A DNA stretch of 25,373 nt from a virus. Position numbers and translations under genes: made by a program. Below are positions 18,796 through 25,373 of the stretch, piece by piece (position 1 is the first letter of the stretch; the number at the start of each line of letters is the position of its first letter). The notes below the pieces were generated by a model, which was not told the origin of the DNA, ran no database searches, and was given only the letters and a program-made list of their open reading frames with translations. Location: positions 1 through 25,373 of the IMG/VR virus record IMGVR_UViG_3300030099_002053. The stretch is one strand, 5' to 3'.

Positions 18796-20427
18796 TTATC
18801 CCTCCGTAGTTTTTAGTTTAATATAAGCCTGTTTTCCTTTCTTGGTTGTTTCGAAAAATTCACTTATTTTTTCAAATTTTCTATATGTGCTTGCAGGGCT
18901 TACTTTAAGTATTTTAGACGCTTCTGCTAATACATTCTTTTTCCAAACATAACCTCCAGCCATTGTTTCCTGTGGTTTAGCCCTATCTAACGCTAGTTGA
19001 TAAGCCTGTTGGAATTCTTTGAAGTTGCTTTTCTCTTTGAATACTTTAGTATTATTTTTCATAGCATCTTCTAACCAAGACACTAAGGCAGTATAACATT
19101 TCCTTACAATGTATGCGCCCTGTCTAATATTTTGAGAGTGAACAATATACCTGTCTTGTTCTCTTGAAATAGATGGGGCCATTGCTATTGTACTAAGTAC
19201 AGCCAATTTACCCATATATTCTAACAAATTCATTTCAAATAAACGAACCACATTTCGTATTTCAGGTTTTAAATTATCTATGTATCTTAACACATTGTCA
19301 TATTCCATATCCAATACGTCTTTCGCTGATGCACTGTAAACAATTGTTTTGTCTCTATCTTTACCTACAGATTCAAACCTTCTTTTTAGTAATCTATATA
19401 TTTGTAATATTCCATCTTTTAGATGTAAAGGTGGCCCTTGTGTTTCTGCTCTTGTTCCAAATCCTCTAATTACTTCTTTTCTCATGTTAGTAACTATATC
19501 ATCTGGAACGGTCCAAATGTAAGGTAGAAATCTTTGTAAAATACCTTTTTCTGCTACAGTTTTCAACATATATTCTGGAGGAAAAGTACAAGCAATAATA
19601 GTATATCTTGAATCTAAGAAAATAGTAGGTTTACCAGTCAAAATTCTTGCATATACATTAGAGCCATTATGGAAGTTATTCATTAATGTTTGAAAAACAA
19701 TATTCATATTTTCTTTATGACTTTTATCTTTGAATACACCACTACCTTCAAACTCATCTGCGAACCAAAGTCCTTGTCCATGAATAGGCCCGTATTCTAT
19801 TATCCATCTTTCTTTAGCCAAGTCTCTAGTTTCTTCTGCTAATCTTACTTGTTTATTACGTTCACTCATAAGTGGTGCTTCTTCGACCACAAACTGTTCT
19901 TGGGTTAAGGTTCTTCCTCTTAATCTCTCTTCTAATTTTCTTACTTCATCAGCATAGTTAGTTTCTATTTTACGTACTTCATCATCATAAATTTGTTGAA
20001 TCTTATTAGGGTCTTCTATAAATTTTTTATTTTCATAGTAAGTTCCTACTAATGCGGCAGTAGTATAATCTGCAAAGTTTAAAACTTTAGATTCTACATA
20101 AGGGTCATCTTCTAATTCTTTGAAGATTTCTTTAGCAACTGGATTTAACACATAAGAAATCAATGTCGTCTTTCCAGTTCTTGCTGTTTGAATCCAACAA
20201 AAATGTACTCTCGTATCTGTACTAGTTGGACCAAATGGTATCTCAACCATATTTTTAGCCAAATCTCCTAATAAAGAATAAAACCCGATAATAGAAGGTA
20301 TGTTATTATATCTTGAATAACTAGTTGCTACCTTCTCCCAGTTTCTAACTATGTAGGGTAAATCTATCTCCCTAACTTCTTCTTGTTCTTTATCTAATAT
20401 TTCATCATCATAATCATATTCATTCAT
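18796..20427 (-). CDS. P-loop ATPase, probable replicative helicase
   Basis: This is a 543-residue ATPase. The Walker A loop is WIQTARTGKTTL (residues 79-89), in which the usual first Gly is Gln. The Walker B motif is LWFADEFEG (220-228). A sensor-1-like strand is TIIACTFPP (276-284), and GILQRFLPYIW (295-305) supplies a likely arginine finger. This plan resembles DUF3987-type helicase ATPases, though not closely enough to be sure. A charged coiled-coil insertion (about 135-205) separates Walker A and B. The last 45 residues look like a winged helix (LAEASKILKVSPASTYRKFEK). Neighbours are the primase and the ERCC4 nuclease, so a DNA-unwinding role is likely. It is not an obvious MCM. Confidence 0.65.
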   Translation of the reverse strand: MNEYDYDDEILDKEQEEVREIDLPYIVRNWEKVATSYSRYNNIPSIIGFYSLLGDLAKNMVEIPFGPTSTDTRVHFCWIQTARTGKTTLISYVLNPVAKEIFKELEDDPYVESKVLNFADYTTAALVGTYYENKKFIEDPNKIQQIYDDEVRKIETNYADEVRKLEERLRGRTLTQEQFVVEEAPLMSERNKQVRLAEETRDLAKERWIIEYGPIHGQGLWFADEFEGSGVFKDKSHKENMNIVFQTLMNNFHNGSNVYARILTGKPTIFLDSRYTIIACTFPPEYMLKTVAEKGILQRFLPYIWTVPDDIVTNMRKEVIRGFGTRAETQGPPLHLKDGILQIYRLLKRRFESVGKDRDKTIVYSASAKDVLDMEYDNVLRYIDNLKPEIRNVVRLFEMNLLEYMGKLAVLSTIAMAPSISREQDRYIVHSQNIRQGAYIVRKCYTALVSWLEDAMKNNTKVFKEKSNFKEFQQAYQLALDRAKPQETMAGGYVWKKNVLAEASKILKVSPASTYRKFEKISEFFETTKKGKQAYIKLKTTEG

Positions 20428-21119
20428 TGTTTCACCTTCTTTTCTGAGTTAAAAACGGATAAGATTTTATCTGCTGTTACATCTCCTATTCCGTCTAAGG
20501 AACATAGTTCCCTTTTACTACAGTCTCCTATCTCCATAAGTGACCCGTATTTCTTAATAAGCATCTTTGCTTTCTTTTCGCTTATACCTTTAATTGATGT
20601 TAACATATTAATGCGTATATCATCAGTAGTTAATCTTTTAAAGATATGAGGTTTAATTGGTTCTCTTTCGTGACCTTGCATTTTAGAAACGGTACAAATA
20701 ATTGAAGCCGCCGCATGTTCACTTGTAACCCATACAGGTTTAATATCTGAGTCTAACATTATTCTTCCTAATGCTCCGAAAAACCTATTCGTTAGAAATC
20801 TCTTTTTATCTCCAATGGGTCTTTTATCATATTTAGCAGAATGGTCTGTATATTGTAAAGCATCTCCTAGTGAACCATAAATAATAACAATATTAGTTTT
20901 GTAACATCTATCCATATTATCTAGTTGTGTCCATAATCTTCTACTCATTACTGAGCCTAAGAAATCAAGGCTTGATTTAGCCTCAAAGCATACATCGCCA
21001 ATTACATAATCTCCGACTTCAATCCATTGTTTAGTAGTCTGTATATTTAATGACTTAGCCTTTTCAATTACTAAGTCTGTGAGAATTGATTTCTCTCTAC
21101 TATCAATTATTAAACTCAT
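20424..21119 (-). CDS. XPF/Hef-like ERCC4 nuclease with helix-hairpin-helix tail
   Basis: This 231-residue structure-specific endonuclease has the ERCC4 core: IDSRE (5-9), EVGDYVIGD (34-42), then FEAKSSLDFLGSVMSRRLWTQL (45-66, quoted by motif; key residues E46, K48, D52, R60/R61, Q65). The usual ERK triad reads EAK. Two helix-hairpin-helix motifs follow: TSIKGISEKKAKMLIKKYG (174-192) and SLDGIGDVTADKIL (207-220). There is no helicase domain, so it resembles crenarchaeal XPF or viral single-domain forms. Family members cut flaps and forks next to duplex DNA. The start lies two bases after the stop of the tandem PIP-like microprotein, and its end overlaps the ATPase start by ATGA. Confidence 0.88.
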   Translation of the reverse strand: MSLIIDSREKSILTDLVIEKAKSLNIQTTKQWIEVGDYVIGDVCFEAKSSLDFLGSVMSRRLWTQLDNMDRCYKTNIVIIYGSLGDALQYTDHSAKYDKRPIGDKKRFLTNRFFGALGRIMLDSDIKPVWVTSEHAAASIICTVSKMQGHEREPIKPHIFKRLTTDDIRINMLTSIKGISEKKAKMLIKKYGSLMEIGDCSKRELCSLDGIGDVTADKILSVFNSEKKVKQ

Positions 21120-21121
21120 AA

Positions 21122-21205
21122 TTATTCCTCAATTTCTAATCCAAAATCTAACAGCGTCATTTGTTCTTCTAATATTAATCCATATTCAAACAGTGTTTTT
21201 TGCAT
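21122..21205 (-). CDS. 27-aa tandem PIP-box-like microprotein
   Basis: This ORF is too short for standard gene callers but is well supported. GGAGGT lies six bases before the ATG, there is one base between it and the primase stop, and two bases separate its stop from the ERCC4 nuclease start. The product is a start Met plus two exact 13-residue units: QKTLFEYGLILEE and QMTLLDFGLEIEE (7 of 13 identical; about 28 of 39 bases). Each unit begins with Q-x-x-L-x-x-aromatic, the core of an archaeal PIP box (compare QATLFDF of archaeal RFC large subunits and QKTLDEWF at the end of this virus's PolB). It presumably binds PCNA. The second aromatic of a full PIP box is Gly in both units. Confidence 0.72.
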   Translation of the reverse strand: MQKTLFEYGLILEEQMTLLDFGLEIEE

Positions 21206-21206
21206 T

Positions 21207-22322
21207 TTATAACCTCCAACATTTTCCTACACAATACCCTTGACCAATTAAAGTTTCACATCTGGGAAAACTGTAATCTTTTTCCAAAATAGAACCCATT
21301 CTTTGTTTCGTTATTGATTCATTGAAATCTAACCACACGTTATAACTTTCGTGTAAATTTTTTATCTCCGCAACAATTTGATTTCCTATTCTGTTACGGG
21401 TTTCTTTATCGGGAACCACGTTTGTATTCATAAATGGAATACTTAAATCAGTCCACAATAATAACTCTTTATACCAACTAACTAATCTCATTCTAGCATC
21501 ATCAGTTGGATTTTCTACCATAATAGCACTATGCATACATGGAGGCATCGGTAGATTACCCACATTAATCACATCGGCCTCGACTTTTGATTGTTTTATC
21601 GGTGCTACTTTAGGCCATTCAACTAGTGTTTTTCCATAAGTTTCTCTTACTTCGAATCTTGGTTTCATCGCTAGCCTTAATAATTCATCCCCATTTAAAA
21701 GAGTATCATTAACAGTTAAAGGAATACAATAAAAACAACCAGTTCCGTAAGAAGATTTTAGATTCATAGTATTTCTAATGCGTCTTAGTCTTCTTTCCTG
21801 TATTCCAGAACTATCCAAAGTTCCGTTTACTGTTACTTTTTTAACTTCGTTAAAGAAAGCAGTTAATCTTCTAATGTCCTTTATTTGTTTTCCATAAACA
21901 TATAAATGAAAACCTCTACCTGAAAAAGACATATCAAATTTATAATCTCTTTCGAGTAAATAATTTTGTACTAAACGTAAATCTACTAAACATTTATCTA
22001 TAGCATTGGGACTAATCATTGTAGCCCCTGTTATTTTATCTACTTCTCCATGATGAGAGTCGAAATCTAAGAACACTCTATCGAGAATAACTGTAGATGT
22101 TACTGCTTGTTTGAATGTATATTGTTCATAATCATAAACAGATGTAAAACAATTCATCTTTCCATTGTGTGTTTTAACCCAACTATTGAAATCCTCTCTA
22201 CTATGAACTACAATTCTTTTACTACCAAAAGTATTAGTTTGTTTATTAGCACTAGGCCAAACTTCTCTAGGGAACTTCATATCATCTATGGGTTTATCCC
22301 TATTCATATTTAGTAAACTCAT
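21207..22322 (-). CDS. archaeo-eukaryotic primase fused to PriL-type Fe-S domain
   Basis: This 371-residue protein starts with a primase small-subunit (PriS/AEP) core. Motif I is VFLDFDSHH (D86, D88). Motif II is SGRGFHLYVYG (S134 to H139). The motif III Asp is probably D170 in TLDSSG, and RLRRIRNTMN (178-187) matches the 'RxxGTxN' region. From about residue 255 it looks like the C-terminal domain of the large subunit PriL: MPPCMHSAI, then a helix-rich stretch, then FPRCETLIGQGYCVGKCW. The four cysteines C262, C355, C364 and C368 are placed as [4Fe-4S] ligands. It thus combines both primase subunits in one chain and should make primers for the viral polymerase. AEP-PriL fusions are known from archaeal plasmids and viruses (pTN2-like). 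Confidence 0.82.
   Translation of the reverse strand: MSLLNMNRDKPIDDMKFPREVWPSANKQTNTFGSKRIVVHSREDFNSWVKTHNGKMNCFTSVYDYEQYTFKQAVTSTVILDRVFLDFDSHHGEVDKITGATMISPNAIDKCLVDLRLVQNYLLERDYKFDMSFSGRGFHLYVYGKQIKDIRRLTAFFNEVKKVTVNGTLDSSGIQERRLRRIRNTMNLKSSYGTGCFYCIPLTVNDTLLNGDELLRLAMKPRFEVRETYGKTLVEWPKVAPIKQSKVEADVINVGNLPMPPCMHSAIMVENPTDDARMRLVSWYKELLLWTDLSIPFMNTNVVPDKETRNRIGNQIVAEIKNLHESYNVWLDFNESITKQRMGSILEKDYSFPRCETLIGQGYCVGKCWRL
21212..21217 (-). promoter_or_regulatory. ribosome-binding site GGAGGT of the microprotein gene
   Basis: A perfect GGAGGT lies inside the last Trp-Arg-Leu codons of the primase, six bases before the microprotein ATG. It is as strong as any site in the operon and is the main evidence that this 27-codon ORF is translated. 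Confidence 0.75.
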
Positions 22323-23986: not shown

Positions 23987-24922
23987 TCAAAACCATTCAT
24001 CCAATGTTTTTTGTTTCCCATCCTCTTTCACTTTTGATATATCCCAATTCATAGCATCAAATATAGGTTTTACCTTTTTTAAAACTTCTGACTCTGATAG
24101 AAATAACCAATCAGGTTCGTAGTCTTTTAATTCTTCTATATTTCTAACTGCTATGTAACCTGCTTTCTTTTCTTCCCCATTCCAATTAGTATATGTTTGG
24201 GGTTGTCCGATTTTAAAATTACATTTCATGTGATAAAATGAATCATCCAATTTATCCTTTTTATTTACGTGTTCATTATAATAAAGAACACCTGCGAATC
24301 CTCCACCGAAAGCAGGTCTTTTTCCTTCAACGGTTGTGCATTGTTTTAATTTTTTATTACAGGATTCCTTTTCACAGACAGCGCTAGATAAAACACTTAG
24401 TAATCCTCTGATATAATCAACATCATATATTTTCTTACATTTAAATTCGGGACATTTAACTTTTAATCTGTTTTCTTTTACTCTACTTCTTTTAATTAAA
24501 TCGGTTTTATCAACTTGACCAGTTCTAACTTTATCATACATATCTCTTACATAAGATATAATATCTTCTTCTGTCTTTTGATTAATCCACATCTCTAATG
24601 CTGTCTTTTGAACTTCTTTCCCAATGACAGATTCAGCAATTCTTTTTAGAGTAAAACCAGTGCAAACAAATTCAGGTTCTTGTAAATGAACACCATCCTT
24701 CCAATTAATAAAACCTGCATTTCTATTTCTAGTTGCTCCAACTCCTAATACAGAATAGTATTTCTCGAACTCTAAATCCATAGGATGGTCTTCTAATCCC
24801 ATAAGATTAGGAAATACATTTTCTTGTATATGTGTATTCAATATCTCTCTAACTTCTTGAGCCTTCTCAATAGAAGGAACAGGAACATAAAGAGAATCAG
24901 TATGTGCATAAACTACTTGCAT
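23987..24922 (-). CDS. polB: family B DNA polymerase, C-terminal fragment (motif C, thumb, PIP box)
   Basis: This 311-residue protein begins MQVVYAHTDSLYV, which is polymerase motif C; the usual YxDTDS is YAHTDS (H7, D9). Next comes the LEFEKYYSVLGV strand, a KKRY-like TRNRNAGF (64-71), then TGFTLKRIAESVIGKEVQKTALE. A Cys-rich insertion (C157, C162, C183, C188, C195, C234) lies in the thumb. The last 50 residues, with DYEPDWLFLSESEVLKKVKPI, match the usual thumb end. The protein closes with QKTLDEWF (304-311), an excellent PIP box for PCNA. The polymerase is split: the preceding part ends at 25299 and another ORF lies between. The two chains must assemble to give an active palm. AGGAGTGA precedes the ATG. 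Confidence 0.85.
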   Translation of the reverse strand: MQVVYAHTDSLYVPVPSIEKAQEVREILNTHIQENVFPNLMGLEDHPMDLEFEKYYSVLGVGATRNRNAGFINWKDGVHLQEPEFVCTGFTLKRIAESVIGKEVQKTALEMWINQKTEEDIISYVRDMYDKVRTGQVDKTDLIKRSRVKENRLKVKCPEFKCKKIYDVDYIRGLLSVLSSAVCEKESCNKKLKQCTTVEGKRPAFGGGFAGVLYYNEHVNKKDKLDDSFYHMKCNFKIGQPQTYTNWNGEEKKAGYIAVRNIEELKDYEPDWLFLSESEVLKKVKPIFDAMNWDISKVKEDGKQKTLDEWF

Positions 24923-25302
24923 TATAATTCACTCCTGTTAAATTTATTTGCAAAGTATTCTGCTTCTCCTTTATATTTAAAATCCCTTCCATCCACATCG
25001 CAATAAATTATTTTTACTCTTGGGTTTAATTTATACATAATTTCAACTCTACGGTTGGGTAATGTGCAGTTAGGATTTTTACAATCTAAGGCCAACCTTT
25101 TATCGGGGTCTACCCTCTTACTTTTGAAGGCGTTTGCCCAACCACATTTACAGAACCATACTCCGACATTAAGGTGTTTTTTCATTGTAGGTTCAGTATT
25201 ATCTAATTTATTAAGTAATTTTATACCTTCGTCTATTACTTCTTTATGTGTAGCGTTTAGTAAAATAAACAATTTTTTTAAATTTATATTTTCTAATTTC
25301 AT
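24922..25302 (-). CDS. Cys-rich putative zinc protein lodged inside the split polymerase gene
   Basis: This 126-residue ORF lies exactly between the two polymerase fragments. Its ATG overlaps the stop of the N-terminal piece (ATGA), and its stop overlaps the start of the C-terminal piece (TAATG). The N-terminal half is helical (NLKKLFILLNATHKEVIDEG). The middle holds WFCKCGWANAF (C51, C53) and LDCKNPNC (C74, C79), a likely zinc site, with a fifth Cys at 101. No LAGLIDADG, GIY-YIG or HNH signature of homing endonucleases and no intein block is visible. It might be a polymerase accessory, a distant or degraded homing nuclease, or an unrelated insertion. Confidence 0.65.
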   Translation of the reverse strand: MKLENINLKKLFILLNATHKEVIDEGIKLLNKLDNTEPTMKKHLNVGVWFCKCGWANAFKSKRVDPDKRLALDCKNPNCTLPNRRVEIMYKLNPRVKIIYCDVDGRDFKYKGEAEYFANKFNRSEL

Positions 25303-25373
25303 GTTAACTCCCTCACTTTAAATGCCGCTTCTCTAATTGCTTCTCTAGCACTGGCTGTAATAGATGCGGCTAA
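25299..25373 (-). CDS. polB: family B DNA polymerase, N-terminal fragment (only its 3' end in window)
   Basis: The last 24 codons of a gene entering from the right edge read LAASITASAREAIREAAF and then KVRELT before TGA. This matches the palm helix of family B polymerases that comes just before motif C ('xAasITaxgRexIrexxxxv.elG'). The downstream fragment resumes with MQVVYAHTDS, so joining RELT to MQVVYAHTDS restores the normal spacing with no residue missing. Motifs A and B and any exonuclease domain should lie outside the window. The TGA stop forms ATGA with the next ORF, so a frameshift error is unlikely to explain the split. Confidence 0.75.
   Translation of the reverse strand, partial: LAASITASAREAIREAAFKVRELT

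Follow-up and report, generated by a model that had tools for sequence, protein, structure and literature searches.

The window analysed here is a 25,373-base virus record from IMG/VR and carries within its replication block a 27-codon ORF whose product consists of little more than two PIP-like motifs. Judged by comparison with related viral loci, this microprotein ORF is a real, conserved and recurrent gene under purifying selection. The microprotein is very likely a clamp ligand, as predicted from its motifs, and probably regulates access to the clamp that the virus itself encodes. Our preferred reading, held with somewhat more confidence than doubt, is that a disordered peptide with two motifs acts as a bivalent ligand and regulates pocket occupancy on the viral PCNA; that it binds, that it prefers the viral to the host clamp and that it regulates are all predictions. 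The usual explanation of clamp traffic is that enzymes carry PIP tails. A viral two-PIP gene present in several archaeal virus lineages would, if this reading is true, amount to a naturally occurring regulator or inhibitor of clamps in minimal form. It would make it possible to study how short bivalent motifs compete on PCNA, and PCNA-targeting peptides might be modelled on it. The case also illustrates that comparison suffices to recognise and test genes of about 27 codons in uncultured virus genomes.

A tandem-motif ORF between primase-like and ERCC4 genes

The features of the window that concern us are the following:

20424..21119, minus strand: ERCC4 (XPF-type) nuclease with helix-hairpin-helix, downstream of the microprotein (Pfam ERCC4, E 5e-14)
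21122..21205, minus strand: microprotein ORF, 27 aa, MQKTLFEYGLILEEQMTLLDFGLEIEE (translated frame and homologues)
21125..21130, minus strand: GAGGAA in the last codons (EE) of the microprotein, 5 nt (SD distance) from the ERCC4 start; several relatives alike
21125..21163, minus strand: PIP-like repeat 2, QMTLLDFGLEIEE (sequence and column conservation)
21164..21202, minus strand: PIP-like repeat 1, QKTLFEYGLILEE (sequence and column conservation)
21207..22322, minus strand: primase-like gene, upstream; PHROG 9660 (unknown function), primase by position and by the sequence-only reading
21212..21217, minus strand: Shine-Dalgarno (SD) GGAGGT serving the microprotein, located within the 3′ end of the primase gene and 6 nt before the ATG; homologues have a comparable SD
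23987..24922, minus strand: C-terminal part of a split family-B DNA polymerase (PolB)
23990..24013, minus strand: PIP box QKTLDEWF at the PolB C-terminus, the microprotein motif in cis in the window virus

The sequence-only reading had described a 27-codon ORF with a perfect GGAGGT, separated by 1 base from the primase stop and by 2 bases from the ERCC4 start, and encoding Met followed by two 13-residue repeats. Every element of this description, including the translation, was recovered exactly; the strand, left unstated there, is minus, so that the SD reads ACCTCC on the plus strand at 21212-21217. A Pfam match was sought for the primase-like gene and none was found, and the ERCC4 nuclease of the window is without a C-terminal PIP. 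Among 3000 Markov-simulated windows with matched dinucleotide composition, none contained a tandem motif (single motifs occurred at 0.26 per window). The tandem motif in the window is not due to chance.

Conservation and recurrence of the microprotein gene

A search with the ERCC4 protein returned 80 related viral loci, gathered without regard to the motif. A homologous tandem ORF was found directly upstream of ERCC4 in L001-L006 and L008; L007 keeps it with two small genes between microprotein and ERCC4, and L110 is likewise separated by two genes. The ORF is absent from the ERCC4-upstream site in the sister subclade L009-L012, and its presence requires three changes on the ERCC4 tree. Decay of the ORF in relatives with intact neighbours, named earlier as the observation that would speak against the gene, was looked for and was not encountered apart from this absence in L009-L012.

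The window-type family was aligned over 10 sequences (the window, L001, L002, L004-L008, L082 and L095), some first found by motif search and most through ERCC4. Repeat 1 keeps columns Q1, T3, L4, E6, F/Y7 and G8, and repeat 2 keeps Q, T/S, L, D/E and F/Y, while position 2, the linker and synonymous sites vary across the alignment. Pooled pN/pS in these 10 sequences is 0.48. Each homologue has its own start and a recognisable SD, which disfavours a fusion with PolB or primase by readthrough or frameshift.

According to another reading, the ORF would be non-functional and its conservation would come from ribosome-binding or coupling signals between primase and ERCC4. Such a reading can point to the GAGGA in the last codons, at SD distance from ERCC4, and by the same token the acidic C-terminus of the microprotein may partly reflect an RNA-level constraint. 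It is nevertheless very improbable, since conservation is at the amino-acid level with synonymous changes, the ORF persists in L007 and L110 despite the two intervening genes, and the design recurs in other gene contexts. Mere translational coupling as the explanation of the 27-residue frame was rejected on the grounds of amino-acid conservation and recurrence.

The junction between primase and ERCC4 was also inspected in viruses devoid of the microprotein. In L009-L012, L048, L051, L058, L060, L061, L069, L074 and L077 it holds unrelated small ORFs instead, either 39-42-aa hydrophobic or 110-117-aa, which marks it as a site of small-gene exchange.

Recurrence was examined by pattern scans, in which part of the motif is fixed, so that motif identity is independent evidence in the ERCC4-found rows and not in the pattern-found ones. 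A degenerate tandem-PIP pattern matched 30 stretches in viral contigs, mostly short ORFs of marine archaeal-type viruses, against 1 match for a reversed-peptide version of the pattern. The forward pattern matched 6 times in 257 Gb of cellular genomes, in no case as a short tandem-PIP ORF. Variable-gap scans yielded further examples. Over 34 long records, a relaxed tandem pattern matched exactly once in every microprotein record (11/11), never in the records without the microprotein (0/23), and never in the backward control. A tblastn of the microprotein against named phage records gave no credible match. Pattern matches L089, L093, L100, L102, L103, L107, L113, L118-L122 and L166-L168 were discarded as bacteria or repeats, and L123, a Euryarchaeota MAG, was likewise set aside as its two motifs lie within a 727-residue open frame.

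The microprotein lineages and the placement of the gene are as follows:

Lineage A (window clade): primase-ERCC4 junction
Lineage A2 (L095/L099): primase-ERCC4 junction, MEEKKMRQTTLIEFGLKVNRQMTLIEFGLDVDN
Lineage B (L086/L090/L094/L112 and relatives): directly behind PolB, e.g. MEEKKKYRQTTLHEFMPEATRQTTLEEFL
Lineage C (L114/L116): order clamp-PolB-microprotein, with a 4-base overlap with the PolB stop, MTKKKKKTRQTTLDEFGFEFTEPKGKSKQKTLKDYGLVIEGEEE
Lineage D (L106/L115/L117/L164): before a lipoprotein gene, in a different small-gene cluster, e.g. MNKENSRQTTLDEFGFVLETRQTTLEEFGFEFD

Placement between primase and ERCC4 is thus not essential, as shown by the lineages with the gene behind PolB or in another cluster. 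Across lineages the microprotein measures 27-45 aa with only short tails beyond the motifs, Q-to-Q spacings are 13, 14 or 19 residues, and the inter-motif linker is 5-7 residues in most forms and 12 in one. The proposal that the protein is made essentially of two PIP-like motifs is supported by purifying selection, by conservation in relatives and by its rediscovery in independent gene contexts. In L106 (5815-6243), where the record has an N, the tandem-PIP frame continues into a lipoprotein-like signal sequence (142-aa ORF); the two genes are separate in its relatives L115/L117/L164.

The window shows a layout like that of magroviruses (Aoguangviridae), with split PolB, primase-like gene and ERCC4, and its relatives also hold an RFC-S-like gene, PCNA and both PolB parts. 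The gene layout of the replication block thereby suggests that the carriers are magrovirus-like marine archaeal viruses.

PIP-like motifs and the viral replisome

On PCNA, the binding pocket for PIP peptides lies beneath the interdomain loop. The microprotein repeats follow the pattern Q-x-[TS]-L-x-[DE]-[FY]-G. Q-x-x-[LIM]-x-x-aromatic is found in both repeats of all 10 window-type sequences and in the other lineages, some of these rows having been selected by pattern. Q1, hydrophobic 4 and aromatic 7 are shared with archaeal PIP boxes (RFC-L QATLFDF, FEN1, PolB; A. fulgidus consensus KTTQSTLDSFFK), and the form is the same as that of viral PolB and AAA+ C-termini. Archaeal PIP boxes are, in contrast, single tails of large enzymes, whereas the microprotein has little beyond its pair of motifs, with Gly predominating at position 8. 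Indeed the second aromatic or hydrophobic residue of the PIP box is missing at position 8, which is Gly in both window repeats and in most repeats overall. Gly occupies this position in 3/17 FEN1 C-termini with a recognisable PIP, all from one archaeal phylum and one of them QKNLFDFG. The PIP of A. fulgidus RNase HII also lacks the second aromatic, indicating that the position is dispensable in some archaeal partners (PMC3504372). Given this Gly, our claim is that the microprotein works like a PIP ligand, not that it is a canonical PIP-box protein.

Magrovirus (Aoguangviridae) genomes encode PCNA, RFC-S and a split PolB (PMC10768690). In the window clade, the gene before the N-terminal part of PolB (L130:18721-19500) has homologues in several related records, and its model (pLDDT 91.5) matches Haloferax PCNA with Z 22.1 and rmsd 2.4 over 216 aligned residues. 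For the clamp gene before PolB in lineages B and C, the model is of low confidence (pLDDT 56.8) with PCNAs as best matches, and only the fold match was used. A Pfam PCNA_N search over 27 related records gave no match; the viral clamps have diverged, and they were recognised from gene position, profile and fold. The window itself is devoid of the clamp gene, as the record ends just past the C-terminal part of PolB. Viruses of its group thus appear, from the modelled folds of relatives, to encode their own PCNA, and each lineage probably has its own clamp. The earlier suggestion that the microprotein recruits the host clamp is accordingly not favoured, the relatives of the window virus having a PCNA of their own.

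PolB C-terminal parts in the group of the window end with Q-x-x-L-x-x-W-[FW], with one exception (L025/L026). The tail of L025/L026/L146, SSIRTGWIPMSLTEWF, has Pro in place of the PIP Gln kept by nearly all relatives. No PIP tail was found in PolB of lineages B and C. In the window (23987-25373), palm motif C (AHTDS) marks the very start of the PolB C-terminal piece; its N-terminal counterpart, absent from the window, presumably lies beyond the record end.

A second protein with a PIP in cis is an AAA+ of about 283 aa encoded beside RFC-S. It is clamp-loader-like by RFC-S adjacency, P-loop and C-terminal PIP, its profile search having returned no RFC structure by sequence. A C-terminal Gln-PIP was found in 18/23 records without the microprotein (the other 5 are also without the AAA+ Gln) and in 0/12 microprotein records holding the AAA+, counts that are not independent as the microprotein label represents 2 changes and Gln loss 4 on the AAA+ tree. 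In the microprotein records position 1 is changed and the rest is PIP-like at best; lineages B and C gave no match to the AAA+. The combined AAA+ and PolB pattern suggests a link between microprotein and viral replisome. One contig (G027, the contig of L080, 184,733 bases) encodes the AAA+ protein twice, at sites about 90 kb apart and with differing C-termini; it may combine two virus genomes or belong to a single very large one.

Proposed target and mode of action of the microprotein

The viral clamp is, we estimate, somewhat the likelier target. We base this judgement on gene adjacency in lineages B and C, where the microprotein lies right behind the PCNA-PolB pair, and on concordance with the viral PIPs. 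Blockade of host PCNA is the main rival and ranks second. In this scenario the microprotein would plug the pockets of host PCNA and displace host polymerases, FEN1 and RFC while the virus uses its own clamp. Published magrovirus replisomes are complete, so that host PCNA would be dispensable (PMC10768690), and small clamp-disabling proteins do exist, namely TIP in Thermococcales and Gp168 of phage Twort. The window-clade microprotein moreover keeps T/S at position 3, where PolB PIPs drift to D/E, as would fit a conserved host target. We nonetheless consider host shut-off rather unlikely: in two lineages the gene immediately follows PCNA and PolB of the virus, the match of its motifs to the PIPs of viral PolB and AAA+ means that the viral clamp would be occupied too, and its presence accompanies changes in viral replisome PIPs.

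These changes could be read in another way, in which the microprotein is a subunit tethering PolB or AAA+ to the clamp where the PIP in cis has been lost or weakened. PolB is without a PIP in both lineages where the microprotein follows it, the AAA+ Gln is lost in the remaining microprotein lineages, and small PolB subunits are known in archaea, PBP1 and PBP2 (PMC5418573). Nevertheless, such a tether is unlikely, with hardly any non-motif sequence to contact a second partner (only a basic N-terminus in some lineages) and a window-clade PolB that retains its own PIP.

In our preferred reading, that of a bivalent ligand of the viral clamp, two PIP boxes with a short linker would be translated from their own ribosome-binding site among the replication genes. 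The peptide would act in trans, occupying the PIP pockets of viral PCNA and thereby setting their occupancy, and would compete with, and hand over, PolB, the clamp-loader-like AAA+ and other partners. PCNA pockets are roughly 50-60 Å apart. By this estimate a linker of 5-7 residues cannot span two pockets of one ring, and the idea, raised in the sequence-only reading, that the protein bridges two subunits of one PCNA trimer is therefore doubtful (the linker reaches 12 residues in one form). The short flexible linker might instead promote rebinding, so that apparent affinity rises, or link one ring to another; such avidity or ring joining could offset the missing second aromatic. A bolder and distinctly tentative extension starts from the viruses with the peptide having an AAA+ without the PIP Gln or a PolB without PIP. 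In it, PIPs were detached from replisome enzymes onto a diffusible two-motif peptide, which would be a true replisome component, schedule clamp traffic in trans and perhaps join clamps face to face.

Known small clamp and polymerase ligands differ from the microprotein. TIP (64 aa) is a PCNA inhibitor of Thermococcales that breaks the trimer (PMC4929162, PMC10506467). TIP resembles the microprotein as we picture it: it is small, largely disordered and binds archaeal PCNA, with a PIP proposed at the N-terminus. It differs in its host origin, in a partial PH-like domain at the C-terminus and in its one possible PIP, whereas the microprotein is viral, with two PIPs and no domain. The microproteins fall short of the roughly 64 aa and partial PH-like C-terminal domain of TIP, and no sequence relation between the two was evident. 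Gp168 and other phage clamp inhibitors are similarly small and viral, but Gp168 blocks the bacterial beta clamp by sitting in its DNA channel, not in the motif pocket (PMC11139829). PBP1 and PBP2, small subunits of Sulfolobus PolB1 (PMC5418573), are overlooked accessory proteins of an archaeal PolB to which the microprotein might be likened; their binding partner is PolB1 rather than PCNA, PBP1 binds zinc and has an acidic tail, and neither carries a PIP. Human Pol eta has three PIP boxes in one chain, but spread through a large enzyme, whereas the microprotein is PIP-only. No description of a two-PIP peptide of this form was found in searches of open-access full text.

Beside the clamp-loader genes we also observed a protein of about 410 aa (L130:16342-17568 and L154:2539-3795) with an acidic-aromatic tail (EEDDDYSWF and EEDFDWF). 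This tail is reminiscent of bacterial SSB tails, and the protein is perhaps SSB/RPA-like.
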